A DNA stretch of 41,081 nucleotides from an uncultured Hyphomicrobiales bacterium. GTDB lineage: Bacteria > Pseudomonadota > Alphaproteobacteria > Rhizobiales > Aestuariivirgaceae. This document shows positions 967 to 13,882 of the stretch, piece after piece. The first letter of the stretch is position 1, and each line of letters opens with the position of its first letter. Position numbers and translations under genes: made by a program. Below the pieces are notes generated by a model. The model worked only from the letters and a program-made list of their open reading frames with translations. It was not told the origin of the DNA and made no database searches. The stretch covers positions 1 through 41,081 of the forward strand of contig CAJBCQ010000029.1 of assembly GCA_903951595.1 (NCBI GenBank). Reading direction: 5' to 3'.

Positions 967-1305
967 TCAGCTGATCGTAAGTTCCACGCCCTTGTGCAGT
1001 TTCTGCAAATTGGGGAGTGACTTAGCTTGCCAAGGAATCTGGGTTGAACCCAGCACTTTCATACCAATTTCCGGTAACTTTCGAAGTTCGATCGTAAATT
1101 TTGCCAGCAGATTTATTCCGGAGCTATTCAGGAATTCGAGTTGCGTCAGGTCGAGCACAACAGTCTGCGGCTTTTCCGCCAGCACGGTTTGCATCATGTC
1201 CAGAATTGGCTGGTATGCATCCGTGCCTGAGAGACGAAGGGTTCCCTCATAGTGGATGATGGCACCTTCGGTCCATACATTGTATTCGGCGGTCTTGATT
1301 TCCAT
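967..1305 (-). CDS. STAS-domain protein (anti-sigma factor antagonist / slr1659-like)
   Basis: 112 aa; TVVLDLTQLEFLNSSGINLLAKFTIEL matches the STAS core with candidate phospho-Ser (SSG). Confidence 0.8.
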   Translation of the reverse strand: MEIKTAEYNVWTEGAIIHYEGTLRLSGTDAYQPILDMMQTVLAEKPQTVVLDLTQLEFLNSSGINLLAKFTIELRKLPEIGMKVLGSTQIPWQAKSLPNLQKLHKGVELTIS

Positions 1306-1325: not shown

Positions 1326-1874
1326 TCAGTTAAGCGTGAGTGATGCATAGGTGCTGATGATGACTTCGCCATCCCGGGGCGCGTCGTGGAATGTCCATCC
1401 GAGCCGGGCACCGTAGTCATTCAAAAGAGTAAGGATGCCGAGGCCAGAGGCCGAGGAACTTTCATCCGCCGCATTGGCCTCGATGCGCTCAATCATCAGC
1501 TCACCGGGATCGCGCGTGGTCACCTCGGCCAGCAGTGAATGGAAACCAGACGCGACTTGAGTGCTAGTGCTATTCTTGACGAGCAGCTCAAAATTTCCAT
1601 CCTCAAGCGAGCAATGCAGCTCGATGTCTCCGGGGCTCCTGAACTTGACGGCGTTCTCAAGAAGCTCGTTCACCAGATAGATGATGGAGTGGCGGGCCTC
1701 GCTGTAATCCTGACCAGACTTTGCATGCTGCGTAGCGAATATATCGCCGAGGAACTCACAAGTGGCACTGGCATGATGCCAGCCTAGTGCGAGAGGCCCT
1801 TCCGACAGTACAATCGACATGCCAAAGGCATTGGTGCCGTTGTTAGCCTGTGTTTCTCCAAATAATACGCTCAT
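1326..1874 (-). CDS. HATPase_c-type ATP-binding protein (anti-sigma/serine-kinase-like, slr1658-like)
   Basis: N-box YLVNELLENAVKF and G-box-like SGLGILTLLNDYGA; next to STAS and RsbU-like genes. Confidence 0.75.
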   Translation of the reverse strand: MSVLFGETQANNGTNAFGMSIVLSEGPLALGWHHASATCEFLGDIFATQHAKSGQDYSEARHSIIYLVNELLENAVKFRSPGDIELHCSLEDGNFELLVKNSTSTQVASGFHSLLAEVTTRDPGELMIERIEANAADESSSASGLGILTLLNDYGARLGWTFHDAPRDGEVIISTYASLTLN

Positions 1875-1878
1875 GATG

Positions 1879-4248
1879 TCACCTGTGTTTCACCACGACG
1901 AGCGTTATATCGTCGTGAACCTTCTGGGTTCCGATATGTGTCTTAAGGTCTGAAATAATGGCCGTCACTGCATCGGATGCAGAACCGGCATGCACTCTGG
2001 CCGCCGACTCAATGAGCTGCTCGATGCTATAGAGCTGACCTGCCTCGCTTTCAGCTTCCGTAATCCCGTCTGTGAACAGCACCAGCATGTCACCAGCGCC
2101 AAACTCAACGCTGATGCTCGACACATAGTCGCCGATGTTTTCTTCCAAGCCAATCGGGAAGCCAAGGTCCATCGTATCAATGCGTGAAACTGAGCCGTCA
2201 TGGCGGATGAGGATGACTTCCTCATGCTGGCCCGAAACCGTGACCTTACCACCTTCGTAATCAATGAAAGCGAGTGAAAGATGCTTGCCGGATTTGGTCC
2301 GTTCGACGTTTTTGTAGATAGTTCGGTTCAGCACTTCGAGGAATCCAGCTGGATCATCGACCCCACGCTCATGGAGTGCGCGTGCAACCGACTGCACCAT
2401 CAACATCAACACGCCGCTTTCAATGCCGTGGCCGGTGACATCGCCGATGCCGATCTTGGCCCCATTGCGTGTGTGCAGAACGTCATAGTAATCGCCACCC
2501 ACCTCATCGGCCGGTTCCACATGGCTGGCGATCTGGAGATCTAGAATGCCTTCAAGCTCCGATGCTGCCGGCAGCACCATCATCTGAATGCGCCGTGCCA
2601 CGTCGAGTTCGGCACCCATGCGAAGGTTCTCATCTTTGAGCTTTTCGTAGAGCCGTTGAATTTCCTGCGTCGCGGAGCCTAGTTCGCGAGTACGGTCCGT
2701 CACGCGCTGTTCAAGCGTTTCGGTGTATTCACGGATCTCGCGCGCCATGGAGTTAAACGCAGCACCCACAAGCGCGACCTCGTCGCGTCCCTTGACTGGA
2801 ATCTGTATATTGTAGTCCGAGCGCGAGAGCCGACCTGCTGCATCAGCAAGCGTGACGAGACCGGCGGTGAAGCGCCTTGATACGGCAACAGACACCGCAA
2901 GAACCAGCACAAGGAATGCCAGCACGGAAGCGAAAATGCCTTTAATGATGCGTTGGGTGGCATTGTCGATCTGGCCCTGCGCGGCATAGAGCGAGGCGTA
3001 GATTTCACGTTCAGGAACCACAAAGCCCAACACCAAGCGCTGGGCCGCGATGCCAGCGTTAGGCTGCCAAAAGTTCATCGGCTCCAGCGGGTGAAGGGCT
3101 ATCATGAGGCCTTCAGGTTTACCGTTCTTCTCCACAGTCACATGCGTGATGCTGGTGGCACCGGGCGCTGGAATTTTGAGGCCTGCGATATCAGAGAAGC
3201 GGCTTTTGGTGAGCGAACGCTCAAGCCCCGTCACGCCTGTACCTGTGGCATTTTCTGGCTTGATACCGAGTAGCTCCTCGCCCATTTCGTTCACGGTCAG
3301 CACATTACCATCCTGCAGAGACAGGAAAGCAAAGCCGGTTTCAGCAATTTTCACGTCTTGCACGAGGCCTGTCAATTGCTCCAGCGTGATATCAACACCC
3401 ACCATGCCAGCGACATCATCGCGACCCTTGTTATAGAGCGGATGGAAGTAGCTGATGATAAGCTTGCCGGTGGTGGCATCAACATAGGGCGCTAAGACTG
3501 TGATGTCGGTTTCAACTGGGCGTGCAGCAGGGTTCTTGGCCCATTGTTGCCAAGCCTCGTAAACGCCTGGAAAGAAGAAGTCCCACCAGTTCTGATCATT
3601 GTGGCCGCCATAAAGCTTGTCAAAAGTCTGCGCCTGTTCCGAATAGGGAATCGTACGCATGAAGGGACGTTCCTTTGGGCCGACATAGTACATCTGCAGC
3701 TTGTTCTGGCCCGAGCGCATGAGGGGCGGCACCACAAGTTCGAATATGTCGGAGTTGCGCACAGCATCTTGAACATCAGGGCGCATACGCCCAGGCCCAT
3801 CGAGCAAATAGCCCCAGACGCTAATGACGGAGGTCTCGCCGGGCTTATTCTGGAGCCAATTTTTGTCGCTGTTAAACTCCATCTGATCTTTGAAGCCTGG
3901 ATAATTTTCCAGTGTCTTGCCGATACTTGCGTCCAATTCTGGTTGGTCAATGAGGCTTTGACCAAACTGCGCGAGCGCATTCACCTGATCAAAGGTGCGC
4001 GCGAACATGAGGTCGGCGCGTTGGGCCGTCATGTCGATGTAGCGGGTCAAATATTGTTCGGTGGCCCTGGATAGACCGCTCTCGATTTCGGCAGAAGCAT
4101 CGCGTGATAAGCGCTGCACATTCCACAGCGCAATACCGCCACCCAGCAAGAGCGACAGCAGCACAGCCCCGCACATAATTGCGATGAACTTAGCGCGGAA
4201 GCTCGACAGAAAACCTGCCTTCATGGAAATCTCAGACGTGTTGCTCAT
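1879..4248 (-). CDS. SpoIIE/RsbU-type PP2C serine phosphatase with N-terminal TM, extracytoplasmic (dCache-like) sensor, HAMP and coiled coil
   Basis: 789 aa; TM-periplasmic-TM-HAMP; RRIQMMVLP, VGGDYYD, GDVTGHG, FTDGITEA, HDDITLVVVK phosphatase motifs. Confidence 0.92.
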   Translation of the reverse strand: MSNTSEISMKAGFLSSFRAKFIAIMCGAVLLSLLLGGGIALWNVQRLSRDASAEIESGLSRATEQYLTRYIDMTAQRADLMFARTFDQVNALAQFGQSLIDQPELDASIGKTLENYPGFKDQMEFNSDKNWLQNKPGETSVISVWGYLLDGPGRMRPDVQDAVRNSDIFELVVPPLMRSGQNKLQMYYVGPKERPFMRTIPYSEQAQTFDKLYGGHNDQNWWDFFFPGVYEAWQQWAKNPAARPVETDITVLAPYVDATTGKLIISYFHPLYNKGRDDVAGMVGVDITLEQLTGLVQDVKIAETGFAFLSLQDGNVLTVNEMGEELLGIKPENATGTGVTGLERSLTKSRFSDIAGLKIPAPGATSITHVTVEKNGKPEGLMIALHPLEPMNFWQPNAGIAAQRLVLGFVVPEREIYASLYAAQGQIDNATQRIIKGIFASVLAFLVLVLAVSVAVSRRFTAGLVTLADAAGRLSRSDYNIQIPVKGRDEVALVGAAFNSMAREIREYTETLEQRVTDRTRELGSATQEIQRLYEKLKDENLRMGAELDVARRIQMMVLPAASELEGILDLQIASHVEPADEVGGDYYDVLHTRNGAKIGIGDVTGHGIESGVLMLMVQSVARALHERGVDDPAGFLEVLNRTIYKNVERTKSGKHLSLAFIDYEGGKVTVSGQHEEVILIRHDGSVSRIDTMDLGFPIGLEENIGDYVSSISVEFGAGDMLVLFTDGITEAESEAGQLYSIEQLIESAARVHAGSASDAVTAIISDLKTHIGTQKVHDDITLVVVKHR

Positions 4249-5420
4249 ATGGGCTTCCGTGCTGATGCTGCCCAGATTGGCCAGCCGGCATATCCCTTGG
4301 GATGAAGCGCGGCGTAGATGTGGTCTTGGAAGCCTTGTCGGAACTGCGCGATGGATTCCTCGCTATCGCCGCGATCCGTGGCCATTTGCCCCGCAAAGAC
4401 ATTCTCCCAGGCCTGAATCATGTCGGCGAACTCCTGCGGATCACCATCGAGATTGGTGACCATGAAGCTGTCGACCTTGATGTCCTGAAAGCCGGCGTCT
4501 TTGAGGTAACGATAACTTTTCGGCCCCAACTCCACGTCCATCTTGAAATCCGCGAAGAGCTTTGCGACCTCGGTGTAAGTGCGCTGGATACTTTCGCTGC
4601 GCGGCTCGCCTAAGCAATGCGAATTCTTTTCGTTCGTTATGTAGACGCGCCCACCCGGCTTGCAGATGCGGAACAGTTCTTTCAATATCATCTCTGGCTT
4701 ATCAAAAATTTGCAGAGAATGACGGCAGGTGACGAAGTCAAAGCTGTTGTCCTCGATCACCATTTCGGAGGCATCCCCATAGACATATTCAATGTCTGTG
4801 ACGCCAAATTCCGCTGCTACCTTGCGCGCATAGTCGAGGCTGGCGCGCGAATGATCGAGAGCGAGGATGCTGGACGGGTTGAATTCCTTCTTCACCAGCA
4901 CGGCGAAATCGCCGATGCCGCAGCAGATGTCGGCCATCTTCATGCCCGAATCCAGTCCGTGACGCTTCAACAGATTGCGCTCGTGCCGCCAAGTGAGGCG
5001 CGTCTGGTTACGCAAGATAGGAATGAAGCCACCATCCTCGACGAAGGCTTGGCCCGGATAGAAGTCCTTGTCGTATTCTGACACGGTGATGTTTGCCGAG
5101 TGCGGAGTCAACGACTGGAACTTGCGCGTCGACCATCCCATGACGCTAGAAGTAATGATCTCAATTTTGAGTTCTTTTCGCCGCTGGCAAATGTCAATGA
5201 TGAGGCTGGCAATATTGCGGAAGGCAACGTTATTCAGACGCGCAAGCCGCTTTACGTTTAGATAAAGGGTGCCCTGCACTTTCTCGATAGCGGAATTCAG
5301 GGAGCGTGCAAGGAGTGCTATTTCCGCATCACTGCGCGGGCGCAGTTTGCCCGCGATAATGAATTCCTGATTGTTCTCGTTAAACGCCACCTCAAAGGTG
5401 GACTTACCGGCCTGCCGCAT
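4245..5420 (-). CDS. STAS-like N-terminal domain fused to class I SAM-dependent (UbiE-type) methyltransferase
   Basis: N-terminal ~105 aa STAS-like (GTLYLNVKRLARLNNVAFRNIASLIIDICQRRKELKIEIITSS) then MTase motifs ADICCGIGDFAVL, LALDHSRASLDYARK, FDFVTCRHSLQIFDKPEMILKELFRICKPGGRVYI; 4-bp overlap with the phosphatase gene. Confidence 0.82.
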   Translation of the reverse strand: MRQAGKSTFEVAFNENNQEFIIAGKLRPRSDAEIALLARSLNSAIEKVQGTLYLNVKRLARLNNVAFRNIASLIIDICQRRKELKIEIITSSVMGWSTRKFQSLTPHSANITVSEYDKDFYPGQAFVEDGGFIPILRNQTRLTWRHERNLLKRHGLDSGMKMADICCGIGDFAVLVKKEFNPSSILALDHSRASLDYARKVAAEFGVTDIEYVYGDASEMVIEDNSFDFVTCRHSLQIFDKPEMILKELFRICKPGGRVYITNEKNSHCLGEPRSESIQRTYTEVAKLFADFKMDVELGPKSYRYLKDAGFQDIKVDSFMVTNLDGDPQEFADMIQAWENVFAGQMATDRGDSEESIAQFRQGFQDHIYAALHPKGYAGWPIWAASARKPI

Positions 5421-5905
5421 CAGACTGAACCCTCAATCATCATCTCAGCCGAGAGTGTCAATCGCTCACCGGCGGGCGTGATGCTGATCTTTGCCTGGTA
5501 ATCGACCGCCAATTCGAGCAGACCCAGCCGAGGATCCTGTTCACCGGCGGAAAAAAGTGCCGAACGATAAACCTCCGCCACGTCGTCACGCTTCAGCAGG
5601 CTTGTGGCATCGGTATAGAACTGAAGTGTCGGATCATCACAAGGCAGCGTGAGTTCGATGACATCTTGTGGTCCAGAACGCCGGACGCGGATGCTGAACT
5701 TCCCTGCAGGGCCATGGTTGCAAAACACGGTTTCCAGCAGTTCGTTAACCGCAGAACTCAGCAAATTGGCATACAGAAGCGAGTCAGCGCGGTTATTGCT
5801 GGCCATTGTAGCGAAATAGGATGAAATGCGGTCACAATGCAGCCATTCGGACGAAAAGTCCGCGACGTCCATGGAAACCTCAAGAAGCTGATCTGTTCCG
5901 CTCAT
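5420..5905 (-). CDS. slr1658-like HATPase-related regulator, degenerate
   Basis: AVNELLETVFCNHG N-box-like and DPRLGLLELAVDYQA G-box-like; ORF track starts at 5953 but ATG at 5905 (MSGTDQLLEV) is the more plausible start. Confidence 0.65.
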   Translation of the reverse strand: MSGTDQLLEVSMDVADFSSEWLHCDRISSYFATMASNNRADSLLYANLLSSAVNELLETVFCNHGPAGKFSIRVRRSGPQDVIELTLPCDDPTLQFYTDATSLLKRDDVAEVYRSALFSAGEQDPRLGLLELAVDYQAKISITPAGERLTLSAEMMIEGSV

Positions 5906-6100: not shown

Positions 6101-6838
6101 TTGAGCATCAGAATGGACGTACCCGCAGCACGAAAGGCCCGCCCACCTGTGTTCATCTCTGCCCCACTGGCGGCCCTGGTTGAGGGGATCTACCGGGCGG
6201 ACACGCCTATTGGGATCATTCGCCAGAAGGGCAATCTTGGCATTGGAACCTTCAATGACCTTGACGGGGAAATGGTGCTCTTGGATGGGCAGGTCTATTG
6301 TCTGAGGCCACAGGGCGATGCCGAGATTATTCCCGATGATGTGAAAACACCTTTTGCACTCGCCACCCATTTTGAGGGCGATACGCAGGAAAGGTTCGAG
6401 GGTGCGGTTGCCGAGGACGCATTCGAGTCTTCCGTGCTCGACCTCATCCCTTCATCGAACTTAATGTATGCGATCCGCATCGATGGCCATTTCGATTATG
6501 TGCGCGCGCGGTCCGTGCCAAAGCAGAGCAACTACCTGCCGCTAGCTGAGATCGCCAAGCTGCAAACGGTTTTTGAATATAGAAATATCGCCGGAACCAT
6601 TGTGGGATTCTATACGCCGACATTTCTCAGCGGTGTGCACCTACCGGGCCTTCATCTCCACTTCATCACAGCAGACCGCACCAAGGGCGGGCATCTTCTT
6701 GCTGCCGCACCGAACGGCATTACCATCGGCATCCAGCACGCGCCTTCGGTAGAACTTGGCTTGCCCATGACACTTGATTTCCTGACCATGGAACGCACAA
6801 GAGACATGAAAGCCGACCTCGACAAGGTCGAGAGATGA
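6101..6838 (+). CDS. budA: Alpha-acetolactate decarboxylase
   Basis: IGIIRQKGNLGIGTFNDLDGEMVLLDGQVYCLR, RSVPKQSNYLPLAEI, GTIVGFYTPTF, GLHLHFITADRTKGGHLL (His metal ligands) match the ALDC family. Confidence 0.9.
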   Translation: MSIRMDVPAARKARPPVFISAPLAALVEGIYRADTPIGIIRQKGNLGIGTFNDLDGEMVLLDGQVYCLRPQGDAEIIPDDVKTPFALATHFEGDTQERFEGAVAEDAFESSVLDLIPSSNLMYAIRIDGHFDYVRARSVPKQSNYLPLAEIAKLQTVFEYRNIAGTIVGFYTPTFLSGVHLPGLHLHFITADRTKGGHLLAAAPNGITIGIQHAPSVELGLPMTLDFLTMERTRDMKADLDKVER

Positions 6839-6845
6839 GCCGTTC

Positions 6846-7496
6846 TTACATATGTGCGTGAGCGGCAACTGCCATGGCACGCTCGAATAACTCGATGTAG
6901 TGGCTTACGTTCTGGCCGATAAGCTCCATCTTCGAGAATTTCGCAATCCTCTCGCGCGCGACCTTGAGTTCTGATGCCGGAACAATCTGACGGATGATGC
7001 CGCAGGTTTCGGCAAGCGACATGAGGCACACATCGCGCGGATCAGGAAGACCATCGCGCAGCAATACCTCAAGCAACCTCAGCTTCACTTCGCGAATTTC
7101 TTTGCCGTCAATGGCCGGATAACGGCGCGTTTTGAGGAACCACAGAAGGCGGCCCTCGGTCTCAACTAGAATCTTCTTGTCGCAGAGTCTTTGGAGCGAA
7201 TCGGCACGCACCTGATCTCCGAGCCCAATTAGCTGGCTGATGAGCTTCTCGGCATGGCTGTCGAAATCCGGGGCGCTAAGTTGGGCGAGCACCTGGTCAA
7301 GCGCAGCATTGCCTGTCGGGGTCTTGTCAACAACCCAAATGCGATTGAGGTCACTGTCAAGGCGGCCCTCAAGCCCCAGTTCCATAATCGCTGCGCCAAG
7401 AAAGCCGGCGCGCTGATACTCAAGAGGAATATCGACGAAGCCGCCATCTTCATCTTTCAGCGTCAGGAGCAGGAACTCTTCGCAAACCGTCAACAT
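6846..7496 (-). CDS. GPP34 (GOLPH3/Vps74-like) family protein
   Basis: MLTVCEEFLLLTLKDEDGGFVDIPLEYQRAGFLGAAIMELGLEGRL resembles the GPP34 N-terminus; internal ATG at 7496 preferred over the track's 7535 start. Confidence 0.75.
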   Translation of the reverse strand: MLTVCEEFLLLTLKDEDGGFVDIPLEYQRAGFLGAAIMELGLEGRLDSDLNRIWVVDKTPTGNAALDQVLAQLSAPDFDSHAEKLISQLIGLGDQVRADSLQRLCDKKILVETEGRLLWFLKTRRYPAIDGKEIREVKLRLLEVLLRDGLPDPRDVCLMSLAETCGIIRQIVPASELKVARERIAKFSKMELIGQNVSHYIELFERAMAVAAHAHM

Positions 7497-7671
7497 GCTC
7501 GTCCCCCAAAATTTTGCGCTCAGTCTTGATCTCAAGATACCCTTTATAACAAGTCTTTGTGATTAGCAGTACCAAAATTCGCTAAAATTGACTTTGCAAC
7601 CAAATTCTATGATCTTGACCATCTGGGTGGAGTTGCGTAACCTCAGCTTGTTTTCGGCCAAGGAGTGCGGT

Positions 7672-8094
7672 TTGGAAAGCCGTCTTGATATGTCGCTGGT
7701 GAACGACCTCCAAGAAGTAGGTCGCGTTATCGACAGTCTGGAGGAGTTCGGCGTGCGTAACGGAATCCCGCAACAGCAGGTCCTCCGTTTCGCGGTCGCG
7801 CTGGACGAGCTTATCACAAACATCATCTCGCATGGATTTTCGGGCTCAAGCGGTGGCAACATAAGGCTCATTGTCGAACAGCGGGACGGCGTGCTGAGTG
7901 CTGAACTGGTGGATGATGGTCCGCCCTTCGATCCTTTCGCGGCGGAGGTAGAGGCACCCACTGGCGATATCGAGCACCGCAGGATTGGCGGCTTGGGGAT
8001 TGCTTTGGTCAGGAACGCGATGGACCACATCGGGTATAAACGTGATGGCGGGTTCAACTTTGTGAATTTAGAAATGAAACTGAAGACGGCCTAG
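7672..8094 (+). CDS. RsbW-like anti-sigma factor / serine kinase (HATPase_c_2)
   Basis: VLRFAVALDELITNIISHGF N-box, VDDGPPFDP, GGLGIALVRNAMDHIGYKR; AAGGAG at 7660-7665 precedes TTG at 7672, so a start later than the track's 7588 is likely. Confidence 0.85.
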   Translation: MESRLDMSLVNDLQEVGRVIDSLEEFGVRNGIPQQQVLRFAVALDELITNIISHGFSGSSGGNIRLIVEQRDGVLSAELVDDGPPFDPFAAEVEAPTGDIEHRRIGGLGIALVRNAMDHIGYKRDGGFNFVNLEMKLKTA

Positions 8095-8123
8095 CGGGCC
8101 GCGAGAATTGGGAGAATAAGAAC

Positions 8124-8462
8124 GTGACAGACCTGAACCATGAAGTGATCGGCGGCAGTCTTGTTCTCAAGCCCTCGCGGCGCATTGACAGCAGCACATC
8201 CAAGGCATTCGAGGATGCCGCGAGCGCGCTGGTTGAAAGTGGGCCAAAGAAGGTGGTGATCGATGCCTCCGACCTTGACTACATCTCATCTGCCGGGCTG
8301 CGGGTCATCCTTACCACAGCCAAGAAGGCCAAGGCAGCTGGCGGCGGGCTTACCATTGCCTGCGCGAGTGCCAATGTGAAGGAAGTACTCTCCGTCAGCG
8401 GCTTTGATGCGATCTTCGGCCTGCATGATAGCGTGGATGCAGCGCGCGCGTCGTTCGGTTGA
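8124..8462 (+). CDS. STAS-domain anti-sigma factor antagonist (RsbV/SpoIIAA-like)
   Basis: KKVVIDASDLDYISSAGLRVILTTAKKAKAAGGGL with canonical SSAGLR phosphosite; GTG start. Confidence 0.9.
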   Translation: MTDLNHEVIGGSLVLKPSRRIDSSTSKAFEDAASALVESGPKKVVIDASDLDYISSAGLRVILTTAKKAKAAGGGLTIACASANVKEVLSVSGFDAIFGLHDSVDAARASFG

Positions 8463-9340
8463 GCGTGAGCGAGGAACTGCGAGTCCAACTGGCGACAGTG
8501 GAAGACGAGCTTTCGCGCCTGAAGGCCGAGTTCGATGATCTGACGCTGCTCTACCAAGCCACGATTGAGCATGGCGAGGCGGTTGAAGATCAGCTGGCCG
8601 AAAGTAATCTGGAACTACAGCAAACACAGAAGCGGCTCTCGGAAGAACTGACGGAAGCTACCAACTACATATTCTCCATCCTGCCAGAACCGCGCGTTGC
8701 CGCGCCCAGAACGCAATGGCTTTTGGTACCGTCAACGGAGCTAGGTGGGGATAGCTTCGGCTATCATGACATTGATGCGGACCACATCGCATTCTATCTT
8801 CTTGATGTGTGCGGGCATGGTGTGGGTGCTGCCCTTCTGTCAGTGACGGCCATTAACGTGCTGCGATCTGCAGCCCTTCCGAACACAGATTTCCGTGATC
8901 CCGGCGCAGTTCTGTCTTCGCTCAATGATGCCTTTCCCATGGAAAGGCAGAACAACATGTATTTCACTATCTGGTATGGCGTTTACCAGCGCAGTTCTGG
9001 CGCGCTCAGATATGCGAGTGCGGGTCACCCCGCTTCTATTCTCTGCAAAAAAGAAGCACAGGTTTTGACGCTCTGCACACCCGGCATCGCCATCGGCATG
9101 ATGCCCGAAATGTCCTATCGTGGTGGGCACTGCGTGATCGAGCCTGGAGATCGCCTCCATCTGGTGAGCGATGGTACCTTCGAAGTCGAAACGGCACCTG
9201 GCGAAATGCTTTCCTTCAACGATTTTGTAGAGCGGTTAAGCCGTGCGGATAGCCCCGGTGAAGTGCTGGAATGGGTGCGCAGCCTCAATGGGTCTGGCCC
9301 CTTGCCAGATGATTTTTCCCTCCTCACCATCGACTTTTAA
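8459..9340 (+). CDS. SpoIIE/RsbU-type PP2C serine phosphatase with N-terminal coiled coil
   Basis: ELGGDSFGYHDID, LLDVCGHGVGAALLSV, ASAGHPASIL, LVSDGTFEVE, PDDFSLLTIDF; overlaps upstream STAS stop; TTG (8459) or GTG (8465) start. Confidence 0.9.
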   Translation: MSVSEELRVQLATVEDELSRLKAEFDDLTLLYQATIEHGEAVEDQLAESNLELQQTQKRLSEELTEATNYIFSILPEPRVAAPRTQWLLVPSTELGGDSFGYHDIDADHIAFYLLDVCGHGVGAALLSVTAINVLRSAALPNTDFRDPGAVLSSLNDAFPMERQNNMYFTIWYGVYQRSSGALRYASAGHPASILCKKEAQVLTLCTPGIAIGMMPEMSYRGGHCVIEPGDRLHLVSDGTFEVETAPGEMLSFNDFVERLSRADSPGEVLEWVRSLNGSGPLPDDFSLLTIDF

Positions 9341-11894: not shown

Positions 11895-13598
11895 CTAAGA
11901 TTCAAAGCGCAGCAGAATCCCCTGCTGTCCGTCACGCATGAATGGTTGGGCTTGGTGGGCTAAGTGACGAACCAGCCAGCCCGCCATGCGCGAGACGCCA
12001 TCCGGATCATTCATTAGTTCCTCTGGTGAGGGTGCCCGATCAGGGAACACCATTGGCTGGCCGGAATAGAGAATCCGCAAGTCAAAATTCAGCTCATCAT
12101 GGCGAGCTTCGAGACGTATTGGACCTTCACACAATTCAGAAACAGCCTCGACCAACTGGTTCACTGCACCATTGGCCTGCAACACTGTGGCCCGCTTCAA
12201 TCCCCACGTTTCACCCCAAATATCGAGGGCTTCTAGTATCTTGTCGTGGCGGGCCAGTCCGTCGGGCACTTCCATCGCCTCGGTCTGGGCGATGCCGATC
12301 CGCATCAGCGCGTTGAGCGCGATGGCCAGTAGAGCTGAGGTAATGAGCGGTGAGTGCAGAATGATGTTCATGATGCCCGTGGCGCTCGACACCAGTACTG
12401 GTGTCGCTTGAACGGCGATGCCCGCTGCTACCGGCACGCCAATGACGATCATGCGGCGAGGCGACATCATGCGCGACAGCGCCAACTCAGCGCCCGCCAC
12501 GATGAAATAGCTCGCGGCATAGCCAAGGATACCGCCAACCACGGGTTCCGGCATGGCAGTCACGATGGTGGTGAGCTTAGGAAAGAAGCTGGCGGCGATG
12601 AGTACAATGCCCGCAGCCGTGCCAACAATGCGCGAAGTAACACCCGTGGCAAAGGCAAGCCCGATATTGGTGGAGGAAAGCCCGATGAAGCCTCCACCAA
12701 GAAAAGAAGAAAGCACGCTGGTTACGCCCAAGCTGGAGACGCCCTGCGACAGTTGCTTCATGTTGGGTCTGCTCCAGTCGGCATCGTCCAGCCTGTCCAT
12801 GCTGATAAGCACGCCCATATCATCGACCGCCGAGACCATCGAAAGAACAACAAAGGCGATGATGAGCGAGATGCCGATACTGAAATCTGGCAGCACGAAT
12901 TGTGGTGGTGCCATGAACGGTGCTGTGGCGATGGCTTCACCAAACCCGTCCAACTCACCCAAGAAGAACGCCATCAGATAACCGACCGCGCAACCCATCA
13001 GTAGGGCGAAGAAGCGTTTCGTACCTTTAAGCCACACCGCAGCCACGATGATGGTGCCCATTGTGGCTAGGCTGATAGCAAGCGCACGGCTATCGAGTGC
13101 ATAGAAAGTGGCCTCATCTTCGATCCCGAGGATACGGTTGAAGGTAAGCGGTAGGATGGAAACGCCCAGCATGAGAACAACAACACCGCACACTTCAGCC
13201 GGGAATAAGCCGCGCAGTCTTTCCAGCACGTGTCCCATGGCGATCTGCACCAACCCACCCATGAGAACCAGCGCAGCCACGCCGCCTGGGCCTGCCGCAG
13301 CGCCAGCCTGAATGCCGAACAACACGAACACGGGCGTTCCGAGAGGTATGGCGAGAAGCCCACTCGCATGGCGGGCAAACTTCGCCTGAATGACAGCACC
13401 AACCCCGCAACTGAGTAAGGTTCCCACCAGCAGCGACTGCTGTTGCACAGCAGTGAAGCCTGCGCCTTTGGCAATCATTGCAGCATAGATGAGGAAAAGG
13501 GCGGGCAGCGCGGCATGCTGGAAGGCAAGAAGCGCAATGGAGGCCAACGGTGGGCGCTCGTCCCTTGAAAACTGGATACTGCGCGGGCGCTTTTTCAT
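11895..13598 (-). CDS. NCS2-family permease with C-terminal degenerate HATPase-like soluble domain (~11895-12290)
   Basis: NCS2-like TM core (LASIALLAFQHAALPALFLIYAAMIAKGAGF..., FIGLSSTNIGLAFATGVTSRIVG); C-terminal domain with QANGAVNQLVEAVSELCEGPIRLEARHDELNFDLRILYSG; ATG at 13598 preferred over 13646. Confidence 0.85.
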   Translation of the reverse strand: MKKRPRSIQFSRDERPPLASIALLAFQHAALPALFLIYAAMIAKGAGFTAVQQQSLLVGTLLSCGVGAVIQAKFARHASGLLAIPLGTPVFVLFGIQAGAAAGPGGVAALVLMGGLVQIAMGHVLERLRGLFPAEVCGVVVLMLGVSILPLTFNRILGIEDEATFYALDSRALAISLATMGTIIVAAVWLKGTKRFFALLMGCAVGYLMAFFLGELDGFGEAIATAPFMAPPQFVLPDFSIGISLIIAFVVLSMVSAVDDMGVLISMDRLDDADWSRPNMKQLSQGVSSLGVTSVLSSFLGGGFIGLSSTNIGLAFATGVTSRIVGTAAGIVLIAASFFPKLTTIVTAMPEPVVGGILGYAASYFIVAGAELALSRMMSPRRMIVIGVPVAAGIAVQATPVLVSSATGIMNIILHSPLITSALLAIALNALMRIGIAQTEAMEVPDGLARHDKILEALDIWGETWGLKRATVLQANGAVNQLVEAVSELCEGPIRLEARHDELNFDLRILYSGQPMVFPDRAPSPEELMNDPDGVSRMAGWLVRHLAHQAQPFMRDGQQGILLRFES

Positions 13599-13882
13599 CC
13601 GCTTCGTCCTTCGCTCCTGCGCCAGATCCACCGAGTGGATGCCCAAATTTTATCGCTCATCTGGCGGGTGGTTTCTAGCGCAATGTAACTCATGCGCTGA
13701 GGACCCACTCATTATTTTAGGTGAAGAGAGTAACCCCGGGAGAGCGCATGCTGAATTTATCACTATCCTCAATCTCAAGTTGCAATATTTAGAACCTTTT
13801 ATCCGATTATTAAACCCCACATGTAAGATTGGTTTGTAGAATTTAATATCAGGCAATTCCGCACCTCTGCAGACAAACGAAA

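Follow-up and report, generated by a model that had tools for sequence, protein, structure and literature searches.

A STAS-methyltransferase fusion lacking the STAS phosphosite in a bgrSTUWV-type partner-switch operon of an uncultured Hyphomicrobiales bacterium

The known targets of partner switches are sigma factors and diguanylate cyclases. The locus described here raises the question of what a methyltransferase, joined to a STAS-like domain from which the phosphosite is missing, might do within such a switch. The window (the whole stretch of DNA analysed, 41,081 nucleotides of contig CAJBCQ010000029.1) carries the fusion gene in a five-gene operon on the reverse strand, and by comparison with known loci it is read as the BgrT homologue of a bgrSTUWV-type partner switch. 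The name presumes that the gene order is a sufficient guide. The same order (degenerate ATPase, STAS-methyltransferase, HAMP-PP2C phosphatase, slr1658 kinase, slr1659 STAS protein) is found in all 26 loci aligned for the motif comparison, that is the window and 25 others, with the first gene of L001 cut by the contig end. The features are as follows:

5420..5905, (-): degenerate slr1658/SiaB-like ATPase, BgrS homologue (NF047703 44.8 bits, below cut-off)
5729..5746, (-): N-box position of the BgrS homologue, NELLET instead of NELLEN (Asn absent in 26/26 loci)
4245..5420, (-): STAS-methyltransferase fusion, read as BgrT homologue (391 aa, ATG start)
5070..5420, (-): predicted N-terminal slr1659-type STAS domain, residues 1-117 (NF047705 match and predicted secondary structure)
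5220..5234, (-): N63-N64-V65-A66-F67, replacing the STAS phosphosite loop N-S-S-G-I (alignments)
4905..4934, (-): methyltransferase motif I ADICCGIGDF, residues 163-172 (alignment of 18 homologues)
1879..4248, (-): HAMP-PP2C (SpoIIE) phosphatase with a dCache-like sensor region, BgrU/SiaA-like (domain matches)
1326..1874, (-): slr1658-type kinase, BgrW homologue, N-box and SGLG intact (NF047703 164.7 bits)
967..1305, (-): slr1659-type single-domain STAS protein, BgrV homologue (NF047705 136.2 bits)
1117..1128, (-): intact phosphosite N60-S61-S62-G63 of the BgrV homologue (present in 26/26 loci)

The BgrS homologue and the fusion overlap by 1 nt (TGATG) and the fusion and the phosphatase by 4 nt, which suggests translational coupling; the remaining gaps of the window operon are 4 and 20 nt. 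The phosphatase is matched by SpoIIE (E=4.2e-37) and HAMP (E=6.1e-11), and by dCache_1 at E=1.7e-8 and 34.7 bits, below the curated cut-off of 45. The kinase and the single-domain STAS protein pass the 100-bit cut-offs of NF047703 (slr1658 superfamily) and NF047705 (slr1659 superfamily) with 164.7 and 136.2 bits, respectively, and the STAS protein reaches 18 bits with the SiaC family PF09345, under its gathering score of 24.5. The product of gene 5420-5905 scores 44.8 bits with NF047703 (E=8.9e-12), under the cut-off of 100, and is homologous but divergent. This family is matched by 18 of 18 BgrS homologues, and the model of the window protein resembles SiaB (6kko, TM 0.62-0.65) and SpoIIAB. 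In plasmid records the BgrS homologue (L082:7450-7965 and L083:19459-19977) is annotated as 'ubiquinone biosynthesis methyltransferase UbiE', a label that looks like a misannotation, since the BgrS relatives match the slr1658 superfamily.

The fusion protein is laid out as a divergent slr1659-type STAS domain (residues ~1-115) followed by a class I methyltransferase (~157-391). The N-terminal domain alone (the first 118 residues) matches NF047705 with E=1.9e-10 and 41 bits, below the curated 100 bits, so it is homologous but divergent; the same family is matched by all 17 homologous N-domains in the alignment. A profile-profile comparison with the neighbouring STAS family gave E=4.3e-5 and a probability of 69%, and a search of the domain profile against PDB sequences gave weak, mixed matches, MlaB-type STAS proteins included. 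In the AlphaFold model (mean pLDDT 82) residues 9-115 are predicted to follow the strand-strand-helix-strand-helix-strand-helix-strand order of a STAS domain. The initial annotation, which had called this region STAS-like and named structure prediction as the check, is thus supported by both family matches and predicted fold order. The 50 matches listed in a fold search with the whole model are methyltransferases only, so the STAS fold stands there without an independent structural match.

The methyltransferase part is matched by Ubie_methyltran (E=6.9e-20) and Methyltransf_11 (E=1.2e-18). Among 18 homologues the motif I glycines, D189 and D216 are invariant, as is every position but one of ADICCGIGDF; judged by this conservation, the fusion keeps an intact SAM site, and its earlier description as an intact class I methyltransferase is upheld. 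The term 'UbiE-type' holds as a distant resemblance, and not as an identity: true UbiE/MenG (NF001244) is ruled out by score, with 72.1 bits against an equivalog cut-off of 216. The best structural and sequence match of this part is 3mgg, a methyltransferase of Methanosarcina mazei.

Full-length relatives of the fusion occur in many alphaproteobacteria. Seventeen were found in genome contigs (59-82% identity), and among plasmids the gene is present at 60-80% identity in 120 records, from Sinorhizobium, Rhizobium, Ensifer, Aminobacter and Phyllobacterium; the copy on pSymB of S. meliloti 1021 is 67% identical to the window protein. An assembly-derived fusion, which the initial annotation had raised as the danger, is ruled out by this conservation across many loci, complete plasmids included. 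The distribution is patchy: of 395 genomes sampled from the class 4 have a match to the fusion, and of 349 sampled from the phylum 6 do (both counts include the window's own genome). When the methyltransferase part was searched in 299 genomes, the fusions scored ~550-570 bits and the next best protein 72 bits, no free-standing relative exceeding this value in that set. By these comparisons the STAS-methyltransferase fusion is real and old.

The phosphotransfer motifs of the operon divide into one intact and one degenerate pair. In the BgrV homologue NSSG is kept in 26/26 loci, and the BgrW homologue keeps NE(L/I)(L/I)ENA.KF, N-box Asn included, in all 26 and SGLG in 25 (L073 has SRLG). In the fusion, the loop L62-N63-N64-V65-A66-F67 aligns opposite L59-N60-S61-S62-G63-I64 of gene 967-1305, and the Ser-Ser-Gly whose loss had been noted earlier is found in none of the 26 loci. 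The phosphosite position is occupied by Asn in 22 loci, by Ser in two (L007 and L076) and by Met in two; in the window it is N64, and helix 2 does not begin with the canonical phospho-acceptor Ser/Thr. The two Ser rows are separate on the tree, nested among Asn rows, and both lie on long branches. The BgrS homologue has neither the N-box Asn nor SGLG in any of the 26 loci, the Asn being replaced by Thr, Val, Ile, Leu or Met. The earlier proposal of an HATPase partner engaged independently of phosphorylation is partly supported by this alignment, as the adjacent HATPase-like protein lacks both motifs, which fits such a pairing. What is new here, at the level of motifs, is the NSSG of the STAS protein against the degenerate site of the fusion, and the Asn of BgrW against its loss in BgrS.

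Across four pairs, the five parts measured have pN/pS values of 0.03-0.30, indicating purifying selection on all of them, and hence that the genes are not decaying. Of the parts measured, the methyltransferase domain evolves most slowly (mean distance 0.33 vs 0.49-1.28). The small regulatory parts all show high distance correlations with one another; in the mirror-tree comparison the partial r with the fusion is 0.667 for 5420-5905 vs 0.673 for 1326-1874, and BgrS is not favoured over BgrW as the partner.

The mechanism that we propose runs as follows. The membrane phosphatase BgrU would sense an outside signal and dephosphorylate the STAS protein BgrV, which BgrW would phosphorylate (we take BgrU to be the PP2C protein and BgrW the kinase of the S. 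meliloti switch). The STAS domain of BgrT, with its phosphosite lost, would form a standing, non-phosphorylated complex with BgrS, a SiaB-like protein without the ATP-site Asn. Unphosphorylated BgrV, when free, may then alter the BgrS-BgrT complex by competition or docking, and this change would raise or lower the activity, or shift the location, of the attached methyltransferase. To this mechanism as a whole, a standing BgrS-BgrT complex modulated by BgrV under the control of BgrU and BgrW, we assign a probability of about 0.55. Its basis lies in the sequence, which shows the domains and the operon, a paired loss of the two halves of a phosphotransfer site, purifying selection on the measured parts and the conservation of the SAM site. 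In the BgrT model we infer binding, the direction of control and catalytic activity; the substrate is probably a small molecule or a lipid.

The BgrRSTUWV operon reportedly controls mixed-linkage beta-glucan through c-di-GMP. BgrT might have an accessory part in regulating a diguanylate cyclase, with a STAS domain serving as a phosphorylation-blind competitor or scaffold for BgrV/BgrW; c-di-GMP would then be the output in every case, by way of enzymes encoded at other places in the genome. Such a role, which we consider unlikely, would agree with the control of BgrR described in PMC8457831. The window operon has the order S-T-U-W-V, and in S. meliloti and Aminobacter a GGDEF-EAL gene lies directly upstream, giving R-S-T-U-W-V. 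BgrR is matched over its full length next to the operon in S. meliloti (the query), in S. medicae and Aminobacter and at five f23 loci, so that in the Sinorhizobium/Aminobacter/f23 clade, and only there, a BgrR homologue is adjacent in 8/8 loci read, which favours this role. Also in its favour, the window's own genome carries GGDEF and EAL proteins. The best BgrR match in that genome covers residues 128-555 of 564 (40% identity, 269 bits), in the GGDEF-EAL part only. On the other side, no adjacent GGDEF-EAL protein BgrR is matched in the window, and tblastn of the flanks searched at the other loci, several of them short, gave no BgrR match. Three genomes from a single genus (G136, G352 and G432; completeness 97, 93 and 96%) have both the fusion and the slr1659 STAS gene, the five-gene operon having been read in G136 (L078) only, and none has a GGDEF or EAL match at E<=1e-5, which suggests an output other than c-di-GMP in that genus. 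With the fusion present in genomes without detectable GGDEF or EAL domains, the methyltransferase becomes the likelier general output of the switch, as far as one genus of incomplete genomes can speak for it; that this domain is the most conserved part measured also counts against the accessory role.

The STAS domain of BgrT could still be under phospho-control, with BgrW acting on another Ser/Thr such as the invariant S91; the Ser at the classical position in two lineages points the same way. We hold this to be improbable, as the classical N-S-S-G loop is absent in 26/26 loci and the model places S91 close to the end of a strand, whereas T68 of SiaC is found where the second helix begins (PMC7647112). 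Least probable of the readings weighed is that the methyltransferase is a stand-alone metabolic enzyme and that its STAS domain serves for dimerisation or localisation only, as a structural module. In favour of this, the methyltransferase is more conserved than the STAS domain; its linkage to four other switch genes in the loci compared and the lack of a free-standing close relative in 299 genomes speak against it. The gating of the methyltransferase through the BgrS-BgrT complex is the reading that we prefer. An extension of it, that the BgrT methyltransferase was the ancestral bgrSTUWV output, gated by a pseudo-kinase/pseudo-phosphoprotein pair, and that BgrR was added later in one clade, is put forward tentatively, at somewhat under even odds.

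Several neighbouring genes are recorded for completeness. On one side, 59-940 encodes the C-terminal part of an NCS2-type permease followed by an HATPase_c_2 match (E=8.2e-5, below cut-off). On the other, 6101-7535 holds an acetolactate decarboxylase gene (+) beside one for a GPP34 (Golgi phosphoprotein 3-like) protein (-), and both lie near the operon in several relatives (e.g. L002-L004, L007, L014, L016, L017). At 7588-9340 an HATPase_c_2 protein, a STAS protein of canonical type and a SpoIIE phosphatase make up a second partner-switch set. Another NCS2-type permease, at 11895-13646, has ~165 extra residues past the permease match, in which no Pfam family is found at E<=0.001. Past the S. 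meliloti operon, some 3.3 kb downstream (L083:27714-35214), an AraC regulator is followed by SDR, GalE-like, glycosyltransferase and GH26 genes, a set that we take to resemble the CuxR-regulated polysaccharide cluster.

If the mechanism is true, a methyltransferase in the core of the switch, held by two phosphotransfer-deficient partners, would be a new kind of output, and would show that a paralogous pair can be converted into a phosphorylation-blind gate. We know of no study of the methyltransferase role of BgrT in the S. meliloti switch. Term searches among open-access papers returned no paper on a STAS-methyltransferase or a pseudokinase partner switch, and those with S. meliloti locus tags returned nothing on the fusion gene.

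In comparison with known systems, the methyltransferase part is distant from 3mgg (~22% identity), an entry whose title names no function. The slr1658/slr1659 superfamilies of Synechocystis are closer for one half of the switch, as the BgrW and BgrV homologues pass both NCBIfam cut-offs, whereas BgrS and the N-domain of BgrT match below them. SiaABCD of Pseudomonas aeruginosa likewise has a HAMP-PP2C phosphatase, an HATPase-like kinase and a STAS-like phosphoprotein, and the BgrS model resembles SiaB; however, the window operon has no diguanylate cyclase gene and its proteins fall under the curated cut-offs for SiaA, SiaB and SiaC. In S. meliloti, according to PMC8457831, the diguanylate cyclase BgrR is modulated by the BgrSTUWV partner switch, whose STAS protein is BgrV. 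The window operon differs from BgrRSTUWV in being without a BgrR homologue, but shares with it the order S-T-U-W-V and the PP2C phosphatase, the kinase and the STAS protein.
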